The notes below the pieces were generated by a model, which was not told the origin of the DNA, did no database searches, and saw only the letters and a program-made list of their open reading frames with translations. A stretch of 64,000 nt of DNA. It comes from Bifidobacterium asteroides DSM 20089 (lineage in GTDB: Bacteria; Actinomycetota; Actinomycetes; Actinomycetales; Bifidobacteriaceae). Below, piece by piece: positions 281 through 25,577 of this stretch. Numbering within the stretch: position 1 is the stretch's first letter; every line of letters starts with the position of its first letter. Both the position numbers and the translations under genes were made by a program. The stretch is taken from contig NZ_CP017696.1 in NCBI RefSeq assembly GCF_002715865.1, forward strand, positions 248,001 through 312,000, in the 5' to 3' direction.

Positions 281-431
281 TTTTGCCCTTCATTTCTGTA
301 GCCTTGAAAAGGCAAAGAACAATTTATATGCATTGTTGTGCTCTATGTGCAGTTGCCTTAATTGGGGGTAGGTCAAAAGCAGACTTGATTTGTTCTGGAG
401 CATGATTTCATTGTGGTTTGGGGGTATTGTA

Positions 432-3335: not shown

Positions 3336-3650
3336 ACCAGGACATAAGACAGGTCCCCCCACCCCACGGAGTTGAGAGGATGGGTGGGGTCCTGCCGTTG
3401 CCCAACCGACCTCATTACCCATGCAGACAGTCCTTAGTCAAGATGGTGGACGGCCGCGAAACACCCTATCTGAATCCCAGATCACGCTTTCAGCCTCGGT
3501 ACTCTTAAAGCATGTAAGGGGAAGAGAAGATGCCATAAATAAGGATGTAGCACTTGTGCTCTAGGGTTTCGTGGCCTGCACCGGGGACCAATCAAGCGTG
3601 CAGTCCATCTGATTCTGGAGATGGTTGCATTGAGGTGTGGGGGTAACGTG
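3336..3650 (+). other. Intergenic gap 1 between array copies 1 and 2
   Basis: 315 bases without a gene. The first 60 bases hold an imperfect C-rich/G-rich hairpin (3351-3393) with no T-run, which may be a weakened terminator. The string CTGCCGTTG follows, as in the other gaps, but the tRNA remnants are not clear here. The conserved 30-base block is at 3452-3481, and the ribosome binding site GGGGG lies just before the TTG at 3651. Confidence 0.55.
3452..3481 (+). repeat. 30-base block conserved upstream of each array gene (copy 2)
   Basis: Second occurrence of the block at 251-280. It shares ACACCCTAT and TGAATCCCAG with the other two and sits about 170-200 bases upstream of the TTG start of copy 2. 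Confidence 0.5.
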
Positions 3651-6581: not shown

Positions 6582-6598
6582 TTCTCCGTCGGGCATAA

Positions 6599-6659
6599 GG
6601 CAGGGTCTGTGCTCATCTCCAAGGAATTTGGGGGTGAGGGCAGGCCCTGCTTGTGTTTC
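6599..6659 (+). terminator. Probable terminator after array copy 2
   Basis: GCAGGGTCTG pairs imperfectly with CAGGCCCTGC across a 30-base loop that itself contains a CTCATC/GGTGAG pair. A weak T-rich tail (TTGTGTTT) follows. The layout is homologous to the terminators behind copies 0 and 3. Confidence 0.6.
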
Positions 6660-6698
6660 CTGTGAATGAGATTGGACTCGTGCCCATACGTCTGAAGC
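6660..6698 (-). pseudogene. Decayed tRNA-Leu remnant (3' part)
   Basis: The + strand reads GAGATTGGACTCGTGCCCA and ACGTCTGAAG. This lines up with GAGATGGGACTCGAACCCA and ACGTCCGAAG in the intact tRNA-Leu at 9987-10067, that is, its acceptor, T-arm and variable-arm end. The anticodon and D arms are gone and the T-loop carries substitutions, so it cannot work as a tRNA. Confidence 0.75.
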
Positions 6699-6701
6699 CC
6701 A

Positions 6702-6760
6702 CTGGTGGAAGAGTCGCTTGACAGAAACGAACTGTCGACCTTTCCATGACAAAGTGGCCT
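6702..6760 (-). pseudogene. Decayed tRNA-Thr remnant with deleted middle
   Basis: The + strand GTGGAAGAGTCGCTTGACAG, ACGAACTGTCGACC and AAAGTGGCC match the intact tRNA-Thr region (GTGAAAGAGCCACTTGACAG, TCGAACTGTCGACC, AAAGTGGCC). The anticodon and D-arm segment between them is missing. The following bases CCACCTCCAACCCAGACC also resemble the sequence just beyond the real tRNA-Thr. This shows the duplicated unit carried the tRNA pair. Confidence 0.8.
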
Positions 6761-6812
6761 CCACCTCCAACCCAGACCAGCCAGATGAAGACCATAAACT
6801 GTTGCGCAATAC

Positions 6813-6842
6813 CGGTCGTGACACACCCTATCGGAATCCCGG
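6813..6842 (+). repeat. 30-base block conserved upstream of each array gene (copy 3)
   Basis: Third occurrence of the block at 251-280 and 3452-3481. It shares ACACCCTAT and GAATCCC and lies about 160-190 bases upstream of the TTG start of copy 3. Confidence 0.5.
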
Positions 6843-7001
6843 CTAATGGTTGCAATTCCAGTGCTCGTGGAGCATGTATGGAAAAAGCGAAGATGCTATT
6901 TTTTTATCTCTATGATAGAGTCGAAGCAATTGGGGACAGATTAAAAGAGCAAAGTTTAGCCGCTCTTAAGCATAATTGTAACTTGATTTGGGGGTATTGT
7001 A

Positions 7002-9935
7002 TTGAAGCGTTTGCAAGAACGGGGCGCTAAGGGTTCACAAGGTGTGAACCGTCCGATAATTGCCGTTCTGGTAACCCTTCTGGCGACGCTGGCCATGGTT
7101 GTTCCGTTGGGGCTGAGCGCCCTTTCGGCCAATCGGGCCAATGCCGTCGATAAACAGGACGAAACGGCCAGCAGAAAACCCCTGCTCTATAGGATGATGG
7201 CCTTCAACGACAGGATCGATGCCTACCAGGATGAGCTGCGCATGGACTTCATCCTGCGCGTGAAGCACAATGAATTTAAGCCGGATTGCGTCGGTGTTGG
7301 TGGGACTGATACCAAAAATCCGTCACAATGCAATTTGTCTTTCATATATCAGTTTGTTGGTTCTGAAAATCCTGACTATTACAGACGCGTGCGGTATATG
7401 AACACTATTACCCCGGATGATTACGTAGACAGCAATAAAAATGCCAACGCTTATGATGGCGCCCTAGCCTGGGCCAGGAATCAGGATGAGTTCTTCACCG
7501 TTCACAAGATCATCAATTCTGGTTTGTATGACTACCTGACCATATCCATTGAGGGTGATATGAACATTAAGGATAAGTCTCCAGATCCCGCAAAATTTGC
7601 GGTTGGCGGTCACCCTGAGCCCTTGAATGTCTTTGCCATCGTTGGTGACCAGAATGCCGCCCTGTCTTGCGGCAATTCTTCCTGGTCCTGGACTACCGAT
7701 AACTGCAAAAATTTTGATCCGGCTTCCATGAGTGATTTACATGCTCAGGATAGATATTCAAATATCACAGCGAGCATGTCCCAGGATAAACAGATGAAAG
7801 TGTATATGGGTTACTGCTTGGACAGCAAAGAGGATATGAAGTGCAGTGGCCCGTATTCCTGGGTCGGTTGGGACTACAATCCAAATCTCTACCAAAACAA
7901 TCAGGCTAATTGGGGCATGGTGACGGATTACGGTTTTCCTGATTATAAGAGCAATGTTACTGGGCCAATCGCCGGCACTGCTCCGGGAACAGCTCCGGCA
8001 CGGTCGTTCTTCGTGTACTGGCTGAATCCGCGTGGCAGTACAAATGACAATCCTGATGGCATATGTTCTGAGACCAATTCGTATTATTACCAGTGGGTGG
8101 CTCTGAAGGATAGCGAGTGGGTGCCTGTCAATGAGCTGACCCCTGAGCCGGTCCTGGTGACAGGCCAGCAGCCGTCTCCCAATACGGCGACTACCACGAC
8201 CAGCAAGGCGGCCCAAGTCAGTAAGTATTCCGCTTTCAACGTGAGTCCGAAGGATCCTCAATATCTCGACAACCCCAACGTGCTTTTTGCAACTGACAAG
8301 GATGGCAATCCTATGCCTGCTCAGAAGGATGATGGCGGGATTGATTTCAAGGAGGCCAAGGAGAAGCAGGATCTTGACGGTTACTTCAAGATGGTCACCT
8401 GGCCTGTCACCACCAATCGGGACGGCAGCGCTTGTACCGTCAGTCCTGAAGTGTACAACCCCAAGAGCGCTGGTCTTGTCGGGATAAACGATGGTATGTC
8501 CACCGTGGAGAAGGATACGAATATCTCTGCGGGCTGGACGATTAACAGTGCCTTTTATAAGTATGATGTGCCTCGTCCTGATGATCCGACAATCACCAAG
8601 ATCGAGAATGATGCGGATGCCGGTTTGGATGCTTCTGGGAGCGTGTATACGACCAAGCTTGATCCGGTAATCAGCGGCGAGTGCATGCCTTCCAAGGATC
8701 CTGCGCGTCCCAACAAGGTCGTTCTCTACGGCGAGGATCCCACCAATCCGATTGTGGAGGGGCAGGGCACGAATGGCGATGACCTGGTCAAAGGCTCGGA
8801 TACATGGGGATTCAGGCTGGGCGAGACCGTGTGTGAGGTCGACACCGGTAGCAAGCAGGGGGGTTCCTGGCGGATACAGGACACGAACAAGCTGTATCCG
8901 TCCCCGGATCCGGGCAACAAGTACAGCGGCTACAGACGTTATCATGCCTGGGTGACTGAGTCTATCTCCGGATTCGGCCTGACCTCCTACTTCTCGAATA
9001 TCGGGACGGCTTATTTCGTCTCAGGCGAGAACGTCCCGGATACGAGCAAGTTCTCGGTCACCGTGCCCCACACGGTAAACGGGAGTCTCCCGGCGGATTC
9101 GGTGGTCACATTCAAGGGTGAGGTGTCGCCTGTGTATACGGCCTGGTCCTCGGGAGGGCTGGGGATGACGGATTCCAGGATGGCTGTTTCCATGAAGCAG
9201 AATGCTGACTCGGACTGGACGCCCCTGGTGACCACCTCGGCCAACACCTTCCTACGGGACGTAGCGGCCGGCACTGTGTCTTCCGTCGCGGATTCCGCGA
9301 CAGGTCTTACGCTGGGCTTGACCAAGACGGCGGATTCCACCTGGTCCTGGTCGCTGGATATTCCTGCTGACAAGTTCGCTGGCTACAACGGCAGCGACGA
9401 GACGCAGACCTATACCTTCCAGGTTGAGATGATCAACCCGATGAACCTCCGATCGAATCCGGCATTCATCGAGCGCAAGGTCGACATGACGTCCACCACA
9501 CTGGTCTTGGAGCGGTACGACGTCTTCCAGGTGGCTGGCAAGGCCTACAAGTACGTGGACGGGGACAGGAAGGTTCCCGAGACCAAGGGGACCGCTGTCC
9601 GGATAACCTGGCCTGGAAATGGCAACAACAGCACCGATGTCATTGTGGGGGACCAGGGTTCATGGCAGGCGACTCCGCCTGAGGGTGTCAACCAGGGTGA
9701 GTTTACAGCTCAGGTGCTTTCCGACGATGCCGAGGGCCCTGATGCCCAAGGCAGGTTCCAGGGCGGGAACCAGTCGGCTCCGGTGTCGCATGAGCTGGAG
9801 TTCCGTCCTTCCAACTCGGCTTTGCCTCTGACCGGTGGATGGCCGCTTTCGGTGCTCAGGATCCTGTCGCTTATGGCGTTGGGCCTGGTCGGCTTTGTGG
9901 CCTGTCTGAGAAACAAGCAGGAAAGCCGGCACTGA
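7002..9935 (+). CDS. Large secreted sortase-anchored surface protein, array copy 3
   Basis: 977 aa. TTG start with GGGGG seven bases upstream. The signal peptide spans about residues 16-46 (ending near ANRANA), followed by a long exposed region. A C-terminal Ig-like module precedes LPLTG at about 941-945, a hydrophobic segment and the tail RNKQESRH. It differs from copies 1 and 2 mainly in residues 90-260 (for example RYMNTITPDDYVDS in place of KYLNTIASASS). From MVTDYGFPDYKS onward it is nearly the same as copy 1, with the DNA also almost identical over long stretches, which suggests recent duplication or gene conversion. The function is not known; a host- or matrix-contact role is inference. 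Confidence 0.85.
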   Translation: MKRLQERGAKGSQGVNRPIIAVLVTLLATLAMVVPLGLSALSANRANAVDKQDETASRKPLLYRMMAFNDRIDAYQDELRMDFILRVKHNEFKPDCVGVGGTDTKNPSQCNLSFIYQFVGSENPDYYRRVRYMNTITPDDYVDSNKNANAYDGALAWARNQDEFFTVHKIINSGLYDYLTISIEGDMNIKDKSPDPAKFAVGGHPEPLNVFAIVGDQNAALSCGNSSWSWTTDNCKNFDPASMSDLHAQDRYSNITASMSQDKQMKVYMGYCLDSKEDMKCSGPYSWVGWDYNPNLYQNNQANWGMVTDYGFPDYKSNVTGPIAGTAPGTAPARSFFVYWLNPRGSTNDNPDGICSETNSYYYQWVALKDSEWVPVNELTPEPVLVTGQQPSPNTATTTTSKAAQVSKYSAFNVSPKDPQYLDNPNVLFATDKDGNPMPAQKDDGGIDFKEAKEKQDLDGYFKMVTWPVTTNRDGSACTVSPEVYNPKSAGLVGINDGMSTVEKDTNISAGWTINSAFYKYDVPRPDDPTITKIENDADAGLDASGSVYTTKLDPVISGECMPSKDPARPNKVVLYGEDPTNPIVEGQGTNGDDLVKGSDTWGFRLGETVCEVDTGSKQGGSWRIQDTNKLYPSPDPGNKYSGYRRYHAWVTESISGFGLTSYFSNIGTAYFVSGENVPDTSKFSVTVPHTVNGSLPADSVVTFKGEVSPVYTAWSSGGLGMTDSRMAVSMKQNADSDWTPLVTTSANTFLRDVAAGTVSSVADSATGLTLGLTKTADSTWSWSLDIPADKFAGYNGSDETQTYTFQVEMINPMNLRSNPAFIERKVDMTSTTLVLERYDVFQVAGKAYKYVDGDRKVPETKGTAVRITWPGNGNNSTDVIVGDQGSWQATPPEGVNQGEFTAQVLSDDAEGPDAQGRFQGGNQSAPVSHELEFRPSNSALPLTGGWPLSVLRILSLMALGLVGFVACLRNKQESRH

Positions 9936-14765: not shown

Positions 14766-15473
14766 GTGAGACGGATTCTGCCGACCCTGGCCACCGAGGT
14801 TGCCTTGGCTGACCAGGGAGCTGAGTATGTGCTGGGCCTGGACGAGGTCGGCAGGGGAGCCTTGGCGGGGCCGGCCATGGTCGGCGTGGTGGCGGTCAGG
14901 TCGGCCGACCTGCCCCATTTGAAAGTCCCTGACGGGGTGGCGGATTCCAAGATGCTGACCCCCGCGCGTCGGCTGGCCATGTATCGTGACCTGGAGGACT
15001 GGGCTGCAGGCTGGGCGGTGGGAGCCTGCTCCAATCATGAGATCGATCAGTGGGGCATCGTCCATGCCCTGGGCATTGCCGCCCTGCGTGCGCTGGCCGA
15101 TTTGGAGCATGGGATGAACCTGGGGCCTGGCCGCCGCCTGGCTGCCATCCTTGACGGCCCCAATGACTACATCACCCCGGCAGCCGACAGTTTTGACGCC
15201 CCCGACCTTCCGGTTCTGCCCAAGGTGTCCACCCAGGTCAAGGGCGATGCCCACTGTGCCAGTGTGGCCTGCGCAGCGGTCATCGCCAAGGTCACCCGTG
15301 ACCGGCTTATGGTCCGCCTGGCCGCCTCCGATCCCGCCCTGGCCCCATACCAGTGGGAGCACAACAAGGGCTATGGGTCACGTGCACACCTGGAGGCCAT
15401 TCGCCGTCTGGGGCCCAGCCGTCTGCACCGGGTCAGCTGGCATTTGCCCTCGTCCGGTCCCTGCAGGGGCTAA
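14766..15473 (+). CDS. rnhB: Ribonuclease HII
   Basis: Cuts the RNA strand of RNA-DNA hybrids and starts removal of misincorporated ribonucleotides. 235 aa. The first catalytic block is GLDEVGRGALAGP (Asp and Glu metal ligands); ILDGPNDYI and the HCASVACAAVIAKVTRD region follow, and the family ending NKGYGSRAHLEAI is present. GTG start at 14766, eight bases behind lepB, so probably co-transcribed. Confidence 0.93.
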   Translation: MRRILPTLATEVALADQGAEYVLGLDEVGRGALAGPAMVGVVAVRSADLPHLKVPDGVADSKMLTPARRLAMYRDLEDWAAGWAVGACSNHEIDQWGIVHALGIAALRALADLEHGMNLGPGRRLAAILDGPNDYITPAADSFDAPDLPVLPKVSTQVKGDAHCASVACAAVIAKVTRDRLMVRLAASDPALAPYQWEHNKGYGSRAHLEAIRRLGPSRLHRVSWHLPSSGPCRG

Positions 15474-15511
15474 TATCGGAACGGTCGACACGGCTATCGG
15501 AAGAAGGTCAC

Positions 15512-16633
15512 ATGCCCGCAGGCAACGGGGGCAGGTCACGGTCCAAGCGCCCCTCCATGTTCGAGGTTGCCCGGCTGGCCGGGGTCTCCCATCAGACTGT
15601 GTCCAGGGTCATCAACAATTCCAAGGACGTTTCTCCCGCCACCCGGATCAAGGTCCAGCAGGCCATCAGGAAGCTGGGTTATCGACCCAGCAACTCTGCG
15701 CGGGCCCTGGCATCCAGCCGCAGCCGGACCATTGGGTTGGTGGCTGGCGGTGTCAGTCTCTTCGGTCCTGTCTCATCGATAACGGCCATCGAGACCGTGG
15801 CCCGTTCCCATGGTCTGTTCATGTCGGTCATGATGGTGGACGAGTCAGCCTGCACGCTTGCCGGATTCCAGGAGCTCTGCGGCACCTTCCTGGAGCAGAA
15901 TGTGGATGCCTTCATCTTTCTGACGCCCACCGACACCATGTTCCGGGCCGCCTGCCAGGTTGAGGTGAGCCAGCCCCGGGTCATCGTCACCTCGACGCAT
16001 GGGATCACCAGCGTCGAAGAGGCCCTGAGCCGCCGCCGGGGCGACGGCCGGATTGCCCTGACCGGAATCGATCAGTGGGGTGCAGTGCAGCGGCTGGCCC
16101 GGCTGCTGGTCTCCCGAGGCCATAGACGGGTGCTCTATATGGCCGGTCCTGCGCAATGGCGGGACGCCGCCACCCGACTGGCTTCCTGGAAGGTGGCCTG
16201 CGCCCGCTGCCGCATACGAACGGCTGTGGTCCACGCCCGCAGCTGGGAGGCTGGGGAGTCCTACACGCTGATGAACCACCTGATTGATCAGCGGGGGATG
16301 AGCGGCACCTCCCTGCCCTCAGCCGTGGTCACGGCCAACGACAACCAGGCCGTGGGTGTGGCCCGATCCCTGCAGGAGCACGGCATACGCATTCCCGGTG
16401 ACATCAGTCTGGTGGGCTTCGACGACGTTCCCACGGTAGACAACATGTTTCCGCCGCTGGCCACGGTTCGTCCCCGCTTTGAGGATCTGGGGGTGGCTAC
16501 CATGCGGCAGGTCCTGGCCCTTCTTCACCAGGGGCAGCCGGTGGAATTCCCGGTCACCCATCACGGTGTGGGGCTGATCCAGGCGGATGTGATTCAGCGT
16601 CGGTCCCTGGGCTACGCAGTCAAGCGCCTCTGA
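15512..16633 (+). CDS. LacI-family transcriptional regulator, probably of the arabinose genes
   Basis: 373 aa. N-terminal helix-turn-helix and hinge (SMFEVARLAGVSHQTVSRVI ... ALASSRSRTIGLVAGG), then a periplasmic-binding-protein-like effector domain with the usual late motifs TANDNQAVGVARSLQEHG and SLVGFDDVP. ATG 15512 follows AAGAAGG. It stands directly upstream of araB, and two near-palindromes that look like LacI-type operators lie between them (16681-16716). I therefore infer that it controls the arabinose genes and senses a sugar or sugar phosphate from that pathway. Note that only araB-N still follows that promoter because of the inversion. Confidence 0.85.
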   Translation: MPAGNGGRSRSKRPSMFEVARLAGVSHQTVSRVINNSKDVSPATRIKVQQAIRKLGYRPSNSARALASSRSRTIGLVAGGVSLFGPVSSITAIETVARSHGLFMSVMMVDESACTLAGFQELCGTFLEQNVDAFIFLTPTDTMFRAACQVEVSQPRVIVTSTHGITSVEEALSRRRGDGRIALTGIDQWGAVQRLARLLVSRGHRRVLYMAGPAQWRDAATRLASWKVACARCRIRTAVVHARSWEAGESYTLMNHLIDQRGMSGTSLPSAVVTANDNQAVGVARSLQEHGIRIPGDISLVGFDDVPTVDNMFPPLATVRPRFEDLGVATMRQVLALLHQGQPVEFPVTHHGVGLIQADVIQRRSLGYAVKRL

Positions 16634-16659
16634 CCACCGTCGGTCCGCATCCCGCGGGC

Positions 16660-16688
16660 TTGCCTGATGCTCGGGTCTCAGTTACAAT
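16660..16688 (+). promoter_or_regulatory. Promoter of araB
   Basis: -35 TTGCCT (16660-16665), 17-base spacer, -10 TACAAT (16683-16688). The -10 lies inside the first near-palindrome, which would allow steric repression. Confidence 0.7.
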
Positions 16689-16716
16689 CGTAACCAGACT
16701 ATGTGAGCGTTAACAT
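16681..16716. promoter_or_regulatory. Two candidate LacI-type operators
   Basis: GTTACAATCGTAAC (16681-16694) is a palindrome with one mismatched pair, and ATGTGAGCGTTAACAT (16701-16716) is an imperfect palindrome with a central CG, typical of LacI-family sites. They overlap the -10 and the presumed transcription start and are 20 bases apart centre to centre. Confidence 0.6.
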
Positions 16717-16735
16717 ATCAGGCAAAGGAGCGGAC

Positions 16736-18130
16736 ATGGTTGTTGGCGAACAAGGCGTCATCGTAAGCGAACTAAAGGAGGGCACGACCAGTCTGGGCAT
16801 CGAATTCGGCTCCACCCGCATCAAGGCTGTACTGATCGACCATGACTACCGGACGCTGGCCACCGGGGACGTCGAGTGGGAGAACCGGCTGGAGGACGGC
16901 CTCTGGACCTACTCCATGGACCAGATCCACCAGGGTCTGCAGGCGGCCTATGCGGCCATGGCCGAGGACGTCCGTCGCCGGTACGGGGTGACGCTGACCA
17001 AAATCGGCGCCATGGGGGTCTCGGCCATGATGCACGGCTACCTGGCCTTCGACAAGGATGGCCAGCTGCTGGTGCCCTTCCGCACCTGGCGCAACACCAA
17101 CACCCGCCAGGCACACGAGGAGCTTTCGCGGGTCTTCAAGATCAATATTCCCGAGCGCTGGTCCATCGCCCACCTCTACCAGGCCATCCTGAACGGCGAA
17201 GAGCATGTGCGGAAGGTGGCCTACATCACCACCCTGGCAGGCTACATGCACTGGAGGCTTTCCGGCCGCAAGGTCATCGGCATCGGCGATGCCTCGGGCA
17301 TGTTCCCCATCGACTCCTCCCGCAAGGAGTTCGACCAGGGCCTGCTGGACATCTTCTCCCGGTTGCCCCGTGTCCAGGCCCAGCCCTGGGACATCCACGA
17401 CCTGCTGCCCGAGCCATTGACCGCCGGCAGCGATGCGGGGGTACTGACCGCAGAAGGTGCCGCCCTGCTCGATCCCAGTGGTCGGCTGCAGCCGGGCGTG
17501 CCCATGGCCCCGCCCGAGGGCGACGCGGGAACCGGCATGGTGGCGACCAACGCGGTTCGTCCCCGCACCGGCAACGTGTCTGCAGGCACGTCCATCTTCG
17601 CCATGGTGGTTCTGGAGCATCCCCTGCGTGACTTCCACCCCGAGGTGGATCCGGTCACCACACCGGCTGGGGATCCGGCCGGCATGAGCCATGCCAACAA
17701 CTTCACCTCGGATCTGAACGCCTGGGTGGGGCTGTTCGGGGACTTCGCCAAGGCCGCCGGTCTGGATCTCAAGGGGGATGCGCTCTACGCCACCCTGTTC
17801 AACCAAGCGCTCCTTGGAGACAAGGATGCAGGCGGGCTGATCAACTACTGCTTCTATTCCGGGGAGTTCCTGGCTGGCCTGGAGGAGGGCCGGCCCGTCT
17901 TCGCCCGTGGCCCCGAGGGACGGATGACCCTGGCCAACTTCATGCGCGCCCAGCTCTTCTCGGCCTTCTCGCCGGTCACCATCGGCATGGATGTGATGAC
18001 CCGCCAGGAGCATGTCCAGGTGGACACCATGGTCGGGCACGGCGGCATCTTCGCCACCCCCAAGGTGGCCCAGCGGATCCTGGCTACCGACAAAGTAGGG
18101 ACAACGCAAACCGACAAGCCGAACATGTAA
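16736..18130 (+). pseudogene. araB: araB, N-terminal part of split FGGY sugar kinase (L-ribulokinase type)
   Basis: FGGY-family kinase, inferred to phosphorylate L-ribulose because araD and araA adjoin it. Intact N-terminal part: nucleotide-binding LGIEFGSTRIKAVLID, the MGVSAMMHGYL segment, GDASGMFPID, and the second-domain phosphate loop GNVSAGTSIFAM. Start ATG 16736 has AAAGGAG five bases upstream. True homology ends at codon 451 (RILAT, to 18088); the last 13 codons (DKVGTTQTDKPNM) are foreign and run to a chance stop. The missing C-terminus lies on the other strand at 20486-20750. Without the C-terminal hinge helices the 464-aa product is probably inactive, unless the two parts assemble. 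Confidence 0.85.
18085..18089. other. Left inversion breakpoint in araB
   Basis: The 5 bases TACCG here recur inverted (CGGTA) at 20746-20750. Flanking bases on either side do not match, so the inverted match is 5 bp only. Joining araB-N up to 18089 with the - strand from 20745 restores the frame RILATAFNAPI. Confidence 0.8.
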
Positions 18131-18167
18131 AGGCCCCGCCACTTATACAGCGGCAGGGCCTTGTTAT
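18130..18167. terminator. Bidirectional terminator between araB-N and araA
   Basis: AAGGCCCCGCC pairs with GGCAGGGCCTT around ACTTATACAGC. T-rich bases follow on + (TTGTTATCTTT), and the - strand continues with a short T-run. It lies next to the araA 3' end and was probably the original end of the ara operon, carried along in the inversion. Confidence 0.75.
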
Positions 18168-18185
18168 CTTTCCTGGAACAGGCGA

Positions 18186-19700
18186 TCAGTGCCTGTTATC
18201 CAGCCGATGGTAGAGTTCGGCTGCACGCAGGTCGGCCTCGAAACGCCGAGGTTCGGTGTTTTCGTCTATGACGGCCAGTTCCACGCCAGCCATGCGGGCG
18301 AAGTCCTCCCAGGCCTCACGACCCACGGTGGTGGTCATGCAGGTATGGTGGGCCGCGCCGGCGCGCAACCAGCATTCAGCCGAAACCTTGAGCGATGGCC
18401 GGGGCTTCCAGAGAGCGCGTGCCACAGGCAGCTTGGCCAGGGACCCGCCGGGCTCGACCACATCCACCACATTCATGACCAGGCGGAAACGCTCGCGTAC
18501 ATCCGCCAGGGAGACGACCACAGCATCACTGCAGGGGGTGGCCGTGAAGACCAGACGCACCGGGTCCTCCCTGTCGCCTATGGACAGGGGGTGGATCTCC
18601 AGGCGGGGCCGTCCCTCGGTCAGCAGCGTGGGCGAGACCTCCAGCATGTGGGCGCCCATGATCTCCTCATGGCCTGGCACGAAGTTGTAGGAATAGTCCT
18701 CCATGAGCGAGCAGCCGCCCTTGAGCCCATAGCCCATGACGTTGCCGATCCGGATCAGAACCGAGGTCTTCCAGTCACCCTCTGCCGAGAATCCGTACCC
18801 GTCAGCCATCAGCCGCTGGGCTCCCACGCCGGGCAGCTGACGCAGGCCTCCCAGATCCTGGAAGTTGTCAACGGCGGCAGTGGCGCCCACCTCTTCCATC
18901 ATGGCCCGCATGCCGAGCTCCTCGCGGGCGGCCACCACAAGGGAGTCGTACCGGGAGTCCAGAAGTTCGGGAGCCACCTCATAGCTGCGCTTGTAGTCCT
19001 CTATCAGATCCTTGACCTGGTCGTCGGTGACGGCGTTCACATGGCCCACCAGTTCGTTGACCGGCCAGGTGTTGACGGAGACGCCGAAGACCCTCTCGGC
19101 CTCGGTCTTGTCGCCCTCGGTGACGGCGACGTCGCGCATGTTGTCGCCCCAGCGGCAGACCTTCATGTTGTTGGCGGCATCCCAACCGGCGCAGGCGCGC
19201 GCCCAGACGCCGATCTTGTCGGCAACCTCGGGGTCGGCGTAGTGGCCGACCACGATCTTGCGCGGGATTCCCAGCCTGGTCAGGATGTAGCCGAACTCAC
19301 GGTCGCCATGGGCCGACTGGTTCAGGTTCATGAAGTCCATGTCGATGGTGTCCCAGGGGATCTCCACATGATGCTGGGTGTTCAGTTGCAGGAGAGGCTT
19401 GCGCAGCTTCTCCAGACCCCTGATCCACATCTTGGCAGGACTGAAGGTGTGCATCCAGGCCACCACGCCGATGCAGGCCGGGTTCGACGAGGCATCGACC
19501 ATGAAGTTCAGGATGGAATCCGAATCCTTCAGCGTGGGCTTCAAGACCAGCTTGACCGGGATCCTACCCGAGTCGTTGAGCGACTGGGCGATGTCCGCCG
19601 CCTGGACGCCCACCTGGCGCAGGGTCTCCTCGCCGTATAGGTCCTGCGAACCAACGGCGAACCAAAGCTCCTTGCCCTCAAAGGGATTTTTCATGCTCAT
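18186..19700 (-). CDS. araA: L-arabinose isomerase
   Basis: Converts L-arabinose to L-ribulose, the first step of arabinose use. 504 aa, the usual family length. Visible: N-terminal [26 protein letters not shown], the metal/substrate region with [17 protein letters not shown], and [18 protein letters not shown] near the C-terminus. Start ATG 19700 has AAAGGAG five bases upstream; ATG 19694 is less well spaced. Follows araD by 28 bases on the same strand. It now runs against araB-N, so it has lost the araB promoter. Confidence 0.96.
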
Positions 19701-19728
19701 ACTTGCTCCTTTGCTTATGCTTTACGGC

Positions 19729-20421
19729 TCAGTGCTGGCCGTAGACGTGCTGGTACCGGTCGTTGAGCTTGGCTATATCGGCCGGATCAATGGGCTTGGG
19801 CGTGCCGATCTGCTCAGCCGCCCAGACCGTGTGGGCCACCTCCTCGGTCATGGCCGCCGCCTTGACGGCAGCCTCGGCATCGGCCCCCACGGTGAAGGGC
19901 CCATGGTTGCGCATGAGCACGGCCGGGCAGCCCGGATGATCCTTTAAGGTATCGACCACGCCCTTGCCGATGGCCTCGGAGCCAATCAGCTCGAAGGGAC
20001 CCACCGGCACGGGGCCGCCAAACTCGTCGCCCATCATGGTCAGCACGCAGGGGATGTCCCTGCCCGTGGCCGCCCAGGCGGTGGCATAGGTGGAGTGGGT
20101 GTGGACCACGCCATAGACCTCGGGCATGTGCCGGTAGATATAAGCGTGGGATAGTGTGTCCGAAGAGGGAGCCTCAGTACCATCCACCACATTGCCATCC
20201 AGATCGGTGACCACCATGGATCCCGGGGTCAGATGCTCATAGCGCACCCCCGAGGGCTTGATGACCATCAGATCAGCGGAGCGCAAACGCTGCGAGACGT
20301 TGCCCGCCGTCCAAACCACCAGATTCCACCTGGTCAGCTGCGCATGCAGGGTGGCCACCTGCTCGCGCACCAGTTTCACCTCATCGCGCACCTCGGGCGA
20401 ATAATCAGCCAAGGACACCAT
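19729..20421 (-). CDS. araD: L-ribulose-5-phosphate 4-epimerase
   Basis: Converts L-ribulose-5-phosphate to D-xylulose-5-phosphate, the entry point to the phosphoketolase pathway. 230 aa, a zinc-dependent class II aldolase fold. Seen: NVSQRL, the zinc-binding HTHSTYATAW, and RNHGPFTVG. Start ATG 20421 with AAAAGGAG six bases upstream. Between araB-C (65 bases upstream) and araA, the order expected for an araBDA operon read on this strand. Confidence 0.95.
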   Translation of the reverse strand: MVSLADYSPEVRDEVKLVREQVATLHAQLTRWNLVVWTAGNVSQRLRSADLMVIKPSGVRYEHLTPGSMVVTDLDGNVVDGTEAPSSDTLSHAYIYRHMPEVYGVVHTHSTYATAWAATGRDIPCVLTMMGDEFGGPVPVGPFELIGSEAIGKGVVDTLKDHPGCPAVLMRNHGPFTVGADAEAAVKAAAMTEEVAHTVWAAEQIGTPKPIDPADIAKLNDRYQHVYGQH

Positions 20422-20485
20422 CAGCAACTCCTTTTCCCGGCCCGATCACGCTGATCCGGCCGCTTGACGTTTTCAGCTCTCGTCC

Positions 20486-20750
20486 TCATCCCTGCAGGGG
20501 GATGGTCTTCACAGCCGCCTGCTCGATGGGCAGACCCTTGGTGAAGCGGTCGAAGAAGGTTCTGAAGCCCTTCACGTCGGCCGGGTCCGGCTGTTCTGTT
20601 GTAGACTGAACGCCCGCGAATACATTGGCATCCAGATAGTCGGCCAGGGTCTGGTCGGCATGACCCAGGTAGTCGGCCAGCACGGCCATCCCCCAGGCAC
20701 CTCCTTCCACAGCGGTGGACATGACCTTGATGGGGGCATTGAAGGCGGTA
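20486..20750 (-). pseudogene. araB: araB, detached C-terminal part of the FGGY kinase
   Basis: The frame reads TAFNAPIKVMSTAVEGGAWG, then MAVLADYLGHADQTLADYLD and on to a stop at 20486. This is the last 87 codons of an FGGY kinase, with the conserved EGGAWGMA helix. Upstream in the same frame, beyond the TACCG at 20750, the translation is unrelated sequence that overlaps the pilin start region. It fits exactly, in frame, onto codon 451 of the araB-N fragment, giving 537 codons. It has no start codon or ribosome binding site of its own at the junction. Confidence 0.88.
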
Positions 20751-20893
20751 CAGTGATGATTAGGCAATGGGAACAGTGGCATGTCCCAAAGTTGACATAT
20801 TGCCCACCCCCCTGAGTCGGGGAAGTGATCGGTTGGGGAGGCGAAGATGTGCCTGGCCATCCTGTGCCTATTAACAAAGAAGGGAATGCGTGC

Positions 20894-22870
20894 ATGCACA
20901 TGCAACGAGATAATGAAGGGATAAGGCTCCCTAAGCTTTTAGGCTTGGCGGTTGCCGGAGCGACGCTCCTGGCGGGCATGGTCGTTTTGCCAGCCACCCA
21001 GGCTTCTGCCGATGAAAACTATGGATTCACTAGTGAAGATAACTTTGTGCCCGGTGCCCTGGACGCTACCAAGGTGCCTCAGTTAACGGTCACCAAGTAT
21101 CTGTCTCTGGCTGATGGGTATGCGCCCACCGGCTCAGCTAAAGATGCCGACACGTTGAACGGCAACCATGATCTCACTCCTGCCCAGGGCATCCTGTTTA
21201 ATGTTAAAGAGGTTGTGCCGAAATCAGGTAAGAACCTAGCTGATATCGATGCAAACGACCCAAACACTTGGGATGCCAAGTACACCGATTCCAGCAAGAA
21301 TTTTGCTGGTATCACCGATGGTCATGGTGTCATTAGTACGTGGTACCAAAGCGATGAGAACGGGAAGCCGACTGCGACGGAAGCAGCTTTCCCGGCAGGT
21401 CCCAACCATTACTATGTTCTGATCGAGAATACCGCTAATTCACCAGCTTTCGATACCAATAACAAGCATGGGATTGATCAGAACAAGTACAAGACTGCTG
21501 CAAACTCTTTCTTTGGTCTGCCCTATGCAACTAATGGATCGGATTCAAACCAGACTCGTGGTTTTATCTACCACCTTCACCTGTATCCAAAGAATGTCAA
21601 TACGCAATCTTTCGCTAAGACTGTGCAGAGCATTAAGGGTGCTGACGGCAACGTTAAGACTCAAACAACGGCGGTTGCCGGTGATACGATCACTTACAAG
21701 CTGTCTCAGAAGCTCTACAAAGATACCACTCCCCACAAGAATGATGGTAAGCTCGACGTCTCGGAGCTGAAGGGTGAGGGCAAGGATGTACGGCTCGCCG
21801 ATCGTATGTCAAGCTCGCTGAAGGGTGATCCAAACACCGTCAAGGCTGTCATTCATGATAGTGCCGGAAATTCGGTGGATTTAGCCGCTGCTGATTTCAG
21901 TAAGGATGTCGCTACTAATACGAATCCCGCTCGTCTGAACGATCCTACAAAGAAGATGTTTGCGGATGCGCCCACGAGTGACGTGACTTACTGGGTATTT
22001 GACTTCTTTACCGCTTCCGGCGTTACGAAAGCTCAGAGTGTCGGAACATCGGTTATGGAGCTGGAGGTCACCTATGATGCATTGGTGACTGGCAACGGTG
22101 ATTCCACAGGTACTGGTGGTGTGGTTAACGATGCCGCATCAGACTACAGCGAGAACACGAACAGCGATGGTACGTCGAAGGATCCTGAACAAGATCATAC
22201 AAATGTGACTAATGCTGTAATTGCTTTTGGTTCTGTTCAGAATAAGAAGACCAATTATGCAGCATTGCCGGGCACTGAGTATCGTCTGGTTCAGAACGCT
22301 GATTCTATTGACAAGTATCTGGCTTCGGATGGTAAGTTCTATGCTGAAGGTGACGCTCCAGCAGGTGTCCAGGTTTACAAGGCTACGGCCAATAATAAAG
22401 GTCTGGTATCCTTTGCGGCCCTGCCCATCTTTGGAACTGGGGCAGGAAGAGCAGCTGATAAGACTGTACAGAGTGTAAACTGGATGTTGGTTGAGACCAA
22501 GACTCCGACGGATTGGCGCAATCCTGGTATCCCCTTCGAAAAGATTACTTATGGGGATACAGGTTTAACTGAGGCTCAGATTGTTGAGAAGTATGGTCGT
22601 AATGCAACTCTTACGCCAGATTATCAGCAGTTGAACTTTGGTAAGTTCGAAGCTCCTGTGGGTGAAATGCCGGAAGGCAACAAGATGGTATTCAACCACG
22701 ATGCTGTCGTCAGGTATTTGGCTCACTATAAGACAACTGACAGCGATTCACCATTGGCCTTGCCTCTAACCGGTGGTCGTGGCATCCTGCTGCTGCTTGT
22801 TGTCGGCGCACTGATCATGGGTGGTGCTCTCTATGCCCGCAATCGGCGCAATAACGCCGCCCGGGCCTGA
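20894..22870 (+). CDS. Major (backbone) pilin of a sortase-dependent pilus
   Basis: 658 aa. Signal peptide about residues 15-40 (ending near TQASA). Then N-terminal pilin modules with a pilin-like motif FIYHLHLYPK (candidate cross-link lysine about 233). A D2-type fimbrial domain follows, then a SpaA/CNA-B-like domain ending with an E-box-like VETKTPTDW (about 532-540). The sorting signal LPLTG is at 623-627, before a hydrophobic helix and the tail RNRRNNAARA. The lysine motif, E-box and LPXTG together define shaft pilins polymerised by class C sortase. Start ATG 20894 follows AAGAAGGGA; ATG 20900 is possible. It is AT-richer than the flanking housekeeping genes, consistent with horizontal origin. 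It is followed by a terminator, then a minor pilin and the sortase. Confidence 0.88.
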   Translation: MHMQRDNEGIRLPKLLGLAVAGATLLAGMVVLPATQASADENYGFTSEDNFVPGALDATKVPQLTVTKYLSLADGYAPTGSAKDADTLNGNHDLTPAQGILFNVKEVVPKSGKNLADIDANDPNTWDAKYTDSSKNFAGITDGHGVISTWYQSDENGKPTATEAAFPAGPNHYYVLIENTANSPAFDTNNKHGIDQNKYKTAANSFFGLPYATNGSDSNQTRGFIYHLHLYPKNVNTQSFAKTVQSIKGADGNVKTQTTAVAGDTITYKLSQKLYKDTTPHKNDGKLDVSELKGEGKDVRLADRMSSSLKGDPNTVKAVIHDSAGNSVDLAAADFSKDVATNTNPARLNDPTKKMFADAPTSDVTYWVFDFFTASGVTKAQSVGTSVMELEVTYDALVTGNGDSTGTGGVVNDAASDYSENTNSDGTSKDPEQDHTNVTNAVIAFGSVQNKKTNYAALPGTEYRLVQNADSIDKYLASDGKFYAEGDAPAGVQVYKATANNKGLVSFAALPIFGTGAGRAADKTVQSVNWMLVETKTPTDWRNPGIPFEKITYGDTGLTEAQIVEKYGRNATLTPDYQQLNFGKFEAPVGEMPEGNKMVFNHDAVVRYLAHYKTTDSDSPLALPLTGGRGILLLLVVGALIMGGALYARNRRNNAARA

Positions 22871-22908
22871 TGATCACGGTCACATCAAGAATCATGTGAG
22901 GTGACCCG

Positions 22909-22945
22909 ATGGCGGACGGTTCCTCCGTGGATCGTCCGCCATTTT
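22909..22945 (+). terminator. Terminator after the backbone pilin
   Basis: ATGGCGGAC (22909-22917) pairs perfectly with GTCCGCCAT (22934-22942), followed by TTTT. It would limit read-through into the minor pilin and sortase, giving excess shaft subunit. Confidence 0.85.
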
Positions 22946-23065
22946 CATACGGATCGTTGAGATATTCTTCGGTTCGCACATGTCGGGACACTGGTTCGGT
23001 TTCATTTGGATTAGCGAATCCGACGCAACCACGTCGTCGAAAGGCGGCCTTGGAAGGGAAGGTTT

Positions 23066-23917
23066 ATGAAGGGAATTGCCTTGCCGAAATGCCTCACCCA
23101 CCGGGTCTTGCCCTGTCTGATTGCGGTCTTGGCCTGCTTAGGCCTTTCCGTTTTCGATATGACGCCGGCGGCAGAGGCGGCGACGGTCAACCCGACCCTG
23201 ACGGTGCAACTCAAGAGAGGACCTTCAGGTCAAGGAGATCAGAAAGACATCCTACCGAGTTCTCCTGTATCGGCTGGGGCTGGGTACGTCTTTCGTGCCC
23301 TAAGATTGGATGCAGGTACTCTGAAGAGCCGGGTGGAGGCATTAGACCATAATCCTGGCGCTGATAAGGCACAAGCGGCCATCAGTAATGAGGTGGCAGC
23401 CAACCCAGATGCTTTCAAGGACAAGACGCAACCCGCTGAATACTATGGTGTCTCTGATCAAGAAGGCACTATAACCAACGCATCAGAAGACAAATCACAA
23501 GGTGTTTGGCTTACAGGAGCTCACCTCGATTTAGAGGCACCCAGCCTGACAGGCGGAAGTCCGGCTGTTTTTGATGGCGACTACTTCAACGCCTCATACT
23601 GGCTGGTCACTATGGTAGCCACACCCAACAATGCAAAGGTGAAAGCCGATCCTGTGGTCGTGCAGTTGCCGCTCTACCGTGAGCAGGGTGAGGTCCATCC
23701 GCTTTATGATGTGACTATAAGTCCCAAGCTTGTGGATGTACCTCAAGACGTGCCTCAGGATGTGTCTCAGGTCGTGCCAGTCGTGCGACCAGGATCAGGA
23801 AAGCTTGCAGCTACTGGTGTATCCATGGTAGCGCCTGTCATTTTGCTTACGATTCTGGCCATGATGGGTCTCTACTTGGCGGTAGTCGCGCGATCCTGGA
23901 ACAGAGATGAGCGCTAG
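23066..23917 (+). CDS. Putative minor pilin / small sortase substrate
   Basis: 283 aa with no strong family match by eye. N-terminal signal peptide (residues about 10-38, ending near AEAA). The middle domain contains a FNASYWLVTMVATP segment, and a Pro/Val/Asp-rich linker follows (VDVPQDVPQDVSQVVPVV). The sorting signal is LAATG (247-251), with a hydrophobic helix and the basic tail RSWNRDER. Its place between the shaft pilin and the class C sortase makes a minor (base or tip) pilin the best reading. It is much smaller than the usual large tip adhesins, so a base or anchoring subunit is more likely. The LAXTG-type motif differs from the shaft pilin LPLTG. Confidence 0.7.
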   Translation: MKGIALPKCLTHRVLPCLIAVLACLGLSVFDMTPAAEAATVNPTLTVQLKRGPSGQGDQKDILPSSPVSAGAGYVFRALRLDAGTLKSRVEALDHNPGADKAQAAISNEVAANPDAFKDKTQPAEYYGVSDQEGTITNASEDKSQGVWLTGAHLDLEAPSLTGGSPAVFDGDYFNASYWLVTMVATPNNAKVKADPVVVQLPLYREQGEVHPLYDVTISPKLVDVPQDVPQDVSQVVPVVRPGSGKLAATGVSMVAPVILLTILAMMGLYLAVVARSWNRDER

Positions 23918-23983
23918 GCATACTCATGGCCATGTCGGTGTGATGCCATCAACTGGCGTCAAAGGCATCTGTGAGGGTGTATT

Positions 23984-24019
23984 AAGGCCGGCGGCATCGT
24001 ACAGGTGCCGCCGGCCTTT
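23984..24019 (+). terminator. Terminator after the minor pilin
   Basis: AAGGCCGGCGGCA pairs with TGCCGCCGGCCTT across ATCGTACAGG, followed by TTGT. A strong stem; the sortase gene begins 56 bases later. Confidence 0.85.
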
Positions 24020-24074
24020 GTATGCCAAGGCCTATAACTGGACTATTTGAAGCGGAGCACAAGGAGGGCTATAG

Positions 24075-25577
24075 ATGGACCAGGACACTGACCCAGCTAC
24101 TATGACACCATCTCAAGCCACCGGCAACGATGATGTTGCGTATGCGTACATGACCGCTGGGCCATCCTCGTCGGAAAAGGCTACTGAGCAAGAGGAAATG
24201 CCGCCTGCCTATGCGCCTAGTTCCGATGTACCACCTTCTTATCCGCCTTCGGCTACACCTAAGGATCGCGGAGGCTCAGAATCGGATGATTCAGATTCAA
24301 TAGAAGCTTCAGTGTCTGTTCCAGGCCAAGCTACAACGTCGGCTCCGATAATTGTAGTTTCAGGAAATCATTTCCAGGATAAAAATCAGCAAGGCAAAGC
24401 TGGTCAGGCAGCTGCGACTGCATCCAAGCAGGCCAAGAACGGTGGCAAGGCCAGCAAGTCGGGACGAGGGTTCGGGCTCCTGGAGACCTTGGCCTTCCTG
24501 ATAGGCCTGGCAATTTTCCTCTATCCGCTGTTGTCAGCCTACGTGAACTATTCCAAGGATTCCGCCGCAGTGGACAACTACGATCAGATCGTGGATGCAC
24601 TCTCGCCTGCACAGCGCAGAGCCATGTGGCGAGATGCCAAGAAGTACGATGAGGAATTGGGCAAGCCCACACTGAGGGACCCTTTCAAGTACAAGGAAGT
24701 CCAGGAACCACTGGGTCGCTACTACAAAATTCTCAATGTAGATGGCAAGGGCATGATGGCCTATGTGGAGATCCCCAAGATCCATGTCAAGCTGCCCGTC
24801 CGGCACGGTACCAGCGATGAGGTGCTCAAGGACGGCACAGGGCATATCGCCACAACCCACGTGCCTACAGACAACCGGACTATTCACTCCGTCATCACCG
24901 GGCACACAGGCGAAGTCGGCTACATGCTTTTTGACAATCTGACCCAGCTGCGCAAGGGTGATGTCTTCCAGATTCGAGTACTCAAACGGCATATGAGCTA
25001 CAAGGTGGACCAGATTAAAGTCATCTTGCCTACCGATGTCAGCGCACTGCAGCCAATCCAGAATTCCAACTATGTGACCCTGCTGACCTGCTATCCCTAT
25101 GGAGTCAACTCCCACCGCCTGATTGTGCGTGGGCACTATATCGGCGATGACGTGCCACCCACCCAGCCTGAGGGGGCGCCCATTTACATGGTCTGGGTGC
25201 TTCTGGCCCTGTTTTTGATCTGTCTAGTGGGCTGGTACCTGCTCTCACGTCGCCGGCGCAACTGCCGTCACGAACTGGAGCAGATGGAGCATCTGGAGTC
25301 TCGGGCGACAGGATCGGGGACTATGGGCGAGCCGCTGGCCACAATCATGGTCAGCCATGACCAGGAGACCCGGTCAGAAGCCACTCGACGCCGCCGGTTG
25401 ATCAGAACGCGGCGAATCTGCAGCGCCCTTATGTGGCTGTTGGCTGTACTCGGCCTCTTCTTCGCCTGGGGCACGGTCGGCATGATGATGAGGATCAGCT
25501 TGCTGCCCGTATTCGATCTTGGCTACCGCTGGTTCGATACCCACGTGTTGTACTTCTTCGGCATCAGCAAATTCTAA
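24075..25577 (+). CDS. srtC: Class C (pilus-polymerising) sortase with long C-terminal membrane region
   Basis: 500 aa. It joins pilin subunits by cleaving LPXTG-type signals and linking them to a lysine of the next subunit. Residues 1-130 are an acidic, Pro/Ser-rich cytoplasmic stretch, followed by a transmembrane helix about 137-158. The extracellular catalytic domain has His277 (ITGHTG), Cys339 (TLLTC) and Arg352 (HRLIVRG). After it come a second helix (VWVLLALFLICLVGWYLL), about 75 basic residues, and a third hydrophobic region to the end. The family is usually nearer 300-400 aa, so both ends are long. Start ATG 24075 has AAGGAGG seven bases upstream. Confidence 0.92.
   Translation: MDQDTDPATMTPSQATGNDDVAYAYMTAGPSSSEKATEQEEMPPAYAPSSDVPPSYPPSATPKDRGGSESDDSDSIEASVSVPGQATTSAPIIVVSGNHFQDKNQQGKAGQAAATASKQAKNGGKASKSGRGFGLLETLAFLIGLAIFLYPLLSAYVNYSKDSAAVDNYDQIVDALSPAQRRAMWRDAKKYDEELGKPTLRDPFKYKEVQEPLGRYYKILNVDGKGMMAYVEIPKIHVKLPVRHGTSDEVLKDGTGHIATTHVPTDNRTIHSVITGHTGEVGYMLFDNLTQLRKGDVFQIRVLKRHMSYKVDQIKVILPTDVSALQPIQNSNYVTLLTCYPYGVNSHRLIVRGHYIGDDVPPTQPEGAPIYMVWVLLALFLICLVGWYLLSRRRRNCRHELEQMEHLESRATGSGTMGEPLATIMVSHDQETRSEATRRRRLIRTRRICSALMWLLAVLGLFFAWGTVGMMMRISLLPVFDLGYRWFDTHVLYFFGISKF

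Follow-up and report, generated by a model that had tools for sequence, protein, structure and literature searches.

A 2.66-kb inversion that splits araB and reverses araD and araA in a Bifidobacterium genome

Introduction

In bifidobacteria, araB, araD and araA form the araBDA operon, of which the LacI-family regulator AraQ is the predicted repressor, as set out in the available part of PMC5928203. Two described kinds of small inversion are the closest parallels for what has happened to this operon in the genome considered here, namely spontaneous inversions studied in Salmonella, where every verified case showed 12 bp or more of homology at the junction and the candidates of 7 and 9 bp did not hold up (available text of PMC3411829), and invertons, including intragenic invertible elements (PMC11892184). 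The locus lies in a stretch of 64,000 nucleotides, hereafter called the window, which corresponds to bases 248001–312000 of a 2,190,368-base single-contig Bifidobacterium genome (completeness 99.99). Here an inversion of 2.66 kb interrupts araB, the kinase gene of the operon, and carries araD and araA onto the opposite strand. An earlier note, made from the letters of the window, had proposed this inversion and left its nature between a fixed mutation, a reversible switch and an assembly error. Comparison with relatives bears out the rearrangement and favours a single, recent, non-programmed inversion whose breaks were joined crosswise at about 3 bases, a reading to which we give a probability of roughly 0.86. 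Among the titles that the literature searches returned, none treats this inversion.

The inversion and its breakpoints

The features of the rearranged segment and its edges are as follows, with positions counted in the window.

16736..18084, plus strand: N-terminal part of araB (FGGY-family kinase, L-ribulokinase by context), collinear with relatives, with FGGY_N and a cut FGGY_C
18085..18089, no strand: left inversion junction, TACCG, where relatives carry other bases
18090..18130, plus strand: out-of-context 3′ tail of the truncated araB up to and including its stop; this is the araA–pilin intergenic region of relatives, read on the reverse strand
18130..18163, no strand: GC-rich hairpin, terminator-like, placed after araA in relatives and now between the converging truncated araB and araA (from the sequence and the relatives' alignment)
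18186..19700, minus strand: araA, L-arabinose isomerase, intact (NF002795, 743.6 bits, cut-off 622)
19729..20427, minus strand: araD, L-ribulose-5-phosphate 4-epimerase, intact (NF005123, 368.9 bits, cut-off 251)
20486..20745, minus strand: severed araB C-terminus, about 85 codons and the stop
20746..20750, no strand: right inversion junction, CGGTA, identical in 12/12 close relatives, where it sits between araA and the pilin gene

With all of the 12 closest relatives, blastn returned one and the same pattern: the sequences are collinear up to 18084, inverted from 18085 to 20746 or 20748, and collinear again from 20746, with 89.7–94.9% DNA identity in the two main blocks. This pattern is not due to chance, since every one of the 12 comparisons places the breaks at the same bases. 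In all of these relatives araB, araD, araA, the GC-rich hairpin and the pilin gene follow one another on one strand, which is the ancestral araB-araD-araA order on the plus strand that the earlier note had reconstructed; the missing kinase C-terminus, followed by araD and araA, was likewise found on the minus strand as the note had read it.

The wider comparison, made on assembled sequence with one genome per species, covers 107 relative loci, of which 28 come from genomes (the 12 closest relatives, 12 more of the genus and 4 of the family) and 79 are the distinct loci among the best 80 of 405 candidate loci on named contigs. Together they hold 92 distinct araB sequences, 15 pairs being present twice. 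Close named relatives include B. apousia, B. polysaccharolyticum, B. mizhiense, B. mellis, B. choladohabitans, B. asteroides and Bifidobacterium sp. 7101, a group that we take to be of bee origin as a whole. Honey-bee isolates are documented for B. apousia, B. polysaccharolyticum, B. choladohabitans and B. asteroides (available part of PMC9429759). Comparison with relatives, which the note had proposed as a check, found the uninverted arrangement throughout: araB is continuous with its own C-terminus in 107/107 loci, and araD or araA lies on the opposite strand in none. The operon is complete and in one orientation in 93 of the 107 loci; in the window araD and araA are reversed. Among the 26 other genomes of the genus, 24 have an araB whose frame stays open for at least 544 codons.

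Gene content varies among these relatives. No araD was found in 10 of the 107 stretches and no araA in 4; the ten stretches in which araA follows araB with no araD found are L047, L048, L049, L075, L076, L083, L085, L112, L113 and L116, two pairs among these being identical. Two of the 26 genomes of the genus (G008 and G015, 2.4–2.5 Mb) gave no araB match.

The junctions themselves are informative about the joining. Today they read TACCG on the left and CGGTA on the right, that is, TACCG on the other strand, and to this extent the earlier observation of the same 5 bases at both breaks stands. It is not supported as the pre-existing cause of the inversion, about 3 bases having been common to the sites before the event. 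At the left site the five bases in the 12 closest relatives are CGCCG (8), GGCTG (2), CGCAG (1) or AGCCG (1), with CCG in 9/12. The first base of codon 451 is G in 107/107 loci and never A as in the window, the base before it is T in only 12/107, and the encoded residue is Ala in 106 loci, Gly in one and never Thr. Since the left site never has this A in relatives and the right site is CGGTA in 12/12, the A was copied from the right end during joining, most likely together with the T as TA. CCG was probably the identity that both sites had in common before the event, and the 5-base identity of the junctions arose mostly through the event itself. When the two ancestral sites are compared over 45 bases, 9–13 positions match in the 12 relatives, against 11.25 expected, which is chance level; a match of this kind reads as the trace of illegitimate joining, not of two recombination sites. 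The features of an illegitimate (microhomology) inversion are thus present, namely few bases common to the breakpoints and a single occurrence, and the matching inverted-repeat sites that a site-specific inverton has at both crossovers are absent.

Truncation of araB and age of the break

The ATG of araB at 16736 lies within a listed open reading frame (ORF) of 16703–18130, with the stop at 18130. Amino-acid identity to the 12 closest relatives is 94–97% and ends at residue 451, in agreement with the break at codon 451 described before, and residues 452–464 are new sequence; the close relatives encode an intact kinase of 537 amino acids, which is the length predicted for the rejoined gene. The FGGY_C profile is matched at positions 2–170 of 198, leaving the C-terminal domain incomplete, and 31 positions invariant in an alignment of 35 of the 79 named-contig loci sit at or beyond residue 452, G466–L474 included. 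PRK04123, a ribulokinase model, matches an intact relative with this C-terminal part only (residues 423–521; 39.6 bits, cut-off 428) and is not among the matches of the truncated AraB. Since neither the truncated AraB nor the intact relative passes a curated kinase cut-off, the name L-ribulokinase rests on the araDA context; a search of solved structures with araB returned only partial matches, to other FGGY kinases. No second araB and no second copy of the severed end were found in the genome, where FGGY_C was found in just one further gene, which is xylulokinase-like (371.3 bits with XylB, cut-off 380.25). araB is broken, as had been claimed. On this evidence L-ribulokinase activity is likely lost, and impaired arabinose use can reasonably be inferred.

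Compared with the 12 relatives, the severed 85 codons differ by 0–4 replacements and by 18–29 silent changes. Among the changes unique to this genome, the severed end has 0 replacements and 10 silent codons, and on this count the fragment was under selection until shortly before the genome was sampled, so that the event would be recent. If the ten changes were independent and neutral, the probability of all being silent would be near 1e-6, although they may be non-independent since unique changes cluster there. Replacements unique to this genome number 0 in araD, which was trimmed by two codons for the count, and 3 in araA; for one flanking gene the counts rest on 9 of 13 rows. The N-terminal part of araB has 4 such replacements and 9 silent changes, and relaxed selection on it was considered and rejected, the difference not being significant (Fisher P 0.10).

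A cluster of 12 unique substitutions occupies the 300 bp inside the right break (20446–20745; Poisson P 0.001, about 0.01 after 9 windows). No close donor for it was found among the loci compared (best 93.0%), and its coding part has no unique replacement.

Regulatory context of araD and araA

Two features upstream of araB are needed here.

15353..16633, plus strand: gene for a LacI-family regulator beside araB, in the place of AraQ in bifidobacteria, with LacI and periplasmic-binding domains
16700..16717, plus strand: candidate LacI-type operator upstream of araB, palindromic, TATGTGAGCGTTAACATA

From its context, and by analogy with the operon in the available part of PMC5928203, the regulator may be AraQ. 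The operator-like site is identical in the 6 relatives compared (of the 12), and a search of the window allowing up to 4 mismatches gave no further copy besides its own reverse complement. After the inversion araD and araA, now on the minus strand, no longer stand behind this site, so that they are indeed cut off from the region before araB. A promoter scan, which leaves organisms with other promoter types uncovered, gave one site upstream of araB on the plus strand, equal in number to what shuffled sequences gave, and no promoter-like site for the inverted araDA pair. The GC-rich hairpin at 18130..18163 was not listed by the pattern scan.

The conserved block upstream of the pilin gene

The right break has a second consequence, which the earlier note had missed: it splits a conserved block upstream of a pilin gene.

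18089..18117, minus strand: displaced distal part of the pilin-upstream block, conserved in 12 relatives and holding three TTGTC boxes (spacing 13 and 11 bases)
20751..20890, plus strand: remaining conserved pilin-upstream region, in which 21–25 of every 25 alignment columns do not vary across 12 relatives
20825..22870, plus strand: SpaH/EbpB-type LPXTG major pilin gene, intact (ORF as listed, with a likely start ATG near 20891; NF033902, 107.9 bits, cut-off 95)

In 12/12 close relatives a conserved non-coding block separates araA from the pilin gene; the right break falls within this block, the pieces of which are now at 18085–18125 and 20746–20905. From the break toward the pilin gene, 21–25 of every 25 columns are invariant through the upstream region and the first codons; in the opposite direction invariance falls to 19/25 and 17/25 columns in the first two steps, and then to 9 and 10. 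It follows from this profile that about 35–40 bases of the block, with the three TTGTC boxes, are on the inverted side. In its exact form the three-box pattern is present at a single place of the genome, 18089–18117, in the tail of the broken araB and 2.6 kb away from the pilin gene. When up to 2 mismatches are allowed, it is found at 9 places against 6 for a reversed control, and therefore only the exact match counts. No second copy of the pilin-upstream region was found in the genome, and Rfam gave no family on 16000–25000. That the boxes bind a regulator is a guess suggested by their spacing and conservation, and the inversion may affect pili.

Origin of the inversion

In the proposed course of events, two breaks, one inside araB and one in the araA–pilin intergenic region, would have been joined crosswise through the about 3 bases in common (CCG), and the end bases of the right break (TA) would have been copied to the left junction during repair, probably by alternative end joining or template switching. 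The event left AraB cut at residue 451, araD and araA reversed and moved away from the operator-like site, and the pilin gene without the distal piece of the conserved block before it. A search for a Ku gene, positive in 1 of 14 control genomes (Bacillus subtilis), found none in this genome. The two places may have been brought together by an imperfect inverted repeat that lies just outside the breaks.

18046..18060, plus strand: arm 1 of the 15-nt inverted repeat (14/15), outside the left break, in araB
20835..20849, minus strand: arm 2 of the 15-nt inverted repeat (14/15), outside the right break, in the pilin-upstream block

The arms are set outward from the breaks by 24 bases on the left and by 84 on the right, and both are present in the 12 relatives, with small changes in some. 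As the crossovers are not in the arms, there was no recombination between them. In 3.8 kb, 21 inverted pairs are listed, most of them longer and weaker than this one, so that single pairs there are often due to chance.

Several considerations weigh against a single, non-programmed event. None of 150 random pieces of the window reached 14/15 against the same pilin flank (the highest, 13, was reached by 3), in a post hoc test made after the pair had been seen; moreover, since the arms are outside the flipped segment, the repeat stays inverted in either orientation and could in principle serve again. The absence of decay in the severed araB end also fits a switch that regularly restores araB. A minority orientation or a polymorphism within the species may escape a comparison of assemblies. 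Finally, junction homology of about 3 bp is at the rare end of the range when set against the cases in the available part of PMC3411829.

The explanation that survives best beside a non-programmed origin is compatible with it: the same inversion may have been kept by selection, for changed pilin expression or for silenced arabinose use. The right break does take the distal conserved block with its three TTGTC boxes away from the pilin gene, and loss of araB is tolerated in the genus, with no araB match in 2/26 other genomes; one event in one genome cannot show selection, however, and such rewiring is in our view unlikely.

Less likely still in our estimate is a reversible switch (inverton), driven by a recombinase or by repeats, that turns arabinose use on and off. 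The undecayed araB end speaks for it, and so does the place of the segment next to a pilin locus, invertons being often near surface genes according to the available part of PMC11892184. The 14/15 repeat flanking the segment also counts in its favour; this moved the probability of the non-programmed inversion from 0.87 to 0.86 and made a switch marginally less improbable than before. The break sites themselves are unlike (9–13/45 bases matching), the crossovers lie outside the flanking repeat, and no inverted case occurs in 107/107 loci. Nor does the window offer an enzyme: PF00239 and PF00589, searched over the whole genome, gave 1 place (a serine recombinase) and 3 places (XerD, a second tyrosine recombinase and a fragment broken by an internal stop), none in the window, so that the nearby invertase of an inverton was not found. 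The serine recombinase, weakly similar to an invertase family, is a protein of 200 amino acids (C1:2133525-2134124) whose gene is 1.87 Mb distant on the contig, a distance that shrinks to about 0.32 Mb on a circular chromosome. It scores 54.1 bits with the Mpi invertase model (cut-off 272), its best model, XisF, also being below cut-off, and it is patchy in the genus, with matches in 15/27 genomes, the window's genome included. Its gene is on the opposite strand to a neighbouring ABC-transporter-like ORF (named by reading only).

One form of switching deserves mention for its consequences, namely a live two-way toggle, aided by the repeat, between arabinose use with the full pilin block and no ribulokinase with a shortened pilin upstream region. 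If it were true, frequent switching back to the ancestral orientation would explain why the severed araB end has kept its coding quality. The repeat raised the odds of this toggle slightly too, but we hold it to be a shade more remote than a switch in general. Equally remote is an artefact of assembly or library in a genome that is truly uninverted, since, although a chimeric template at a short overlap could in principle produce one, the genome is a single 2.19-Mb contig of completeness 99.99, its ends have no long repeat to mislead an assembler (the nearest pair, of 15 nt, is outside the breaks), and the left junction has a base that 0/107 relatives carry at that position but that the right end does have, something that a computational flip would not produce. 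Of the three possibilities left standing at the outset, a fixed mutation is accordingly the one favoured: for the switch there are no matching sites at the breaks, no recombinase in the window and no second case, and for an assembly flip there is no long repeat.

Other observations in the window

Three tandem paralogues of about 980 amino acids, 66–77% identical to one another, occupy 390–3335, 3621–6581 and 7002–9935, with an LPLTGG- or LPFAGG-type C-terminal end. No Pfam or NCBIfam match was found for them (390–9935).

Comparison with known systems

The kind of event described here is already known and ordinary. What the locus adds is a small inversion resolved to the base, with almost no homology at the joint, in an actinobacterium without a detectable Ku gene, and caught before the severed end had decayed. 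It predicts the loss of arabinose use in one bee-gut-type bifidobacterium and draws attention to an element conserved upstream of a pilin gene and dissected by the inversion; its interest would grow if both orientations were found or if the effect on the pilin proved real.

Among described systems, the bifidobacterial araBDA operon under AraQ (available part of PMC5928203) is alike in its genes, in the gene order of the relatives, in the LacI-family neighbour and in the palindromic site before araB, and differs in that the window has a split araB and inverted araDA, a state seen in none of the 107 loci. With the spontaneous inversions at short inverted repeats in PMC3411829 (available part) the locus has in common a small intrachromosomal inversion and short junction homology, but this homology is about 3 bp here against at least 12 bp there, and the 15-nt inverted repeat is nearby, not at the crossover. 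Invertons and intragenic invertible elements likewise cut a coding gene and give it a different 3′ end; here, by contrast, the breaks have no inverted-repeat sites, no recombinase was found in the window, and only one orientation was seen.

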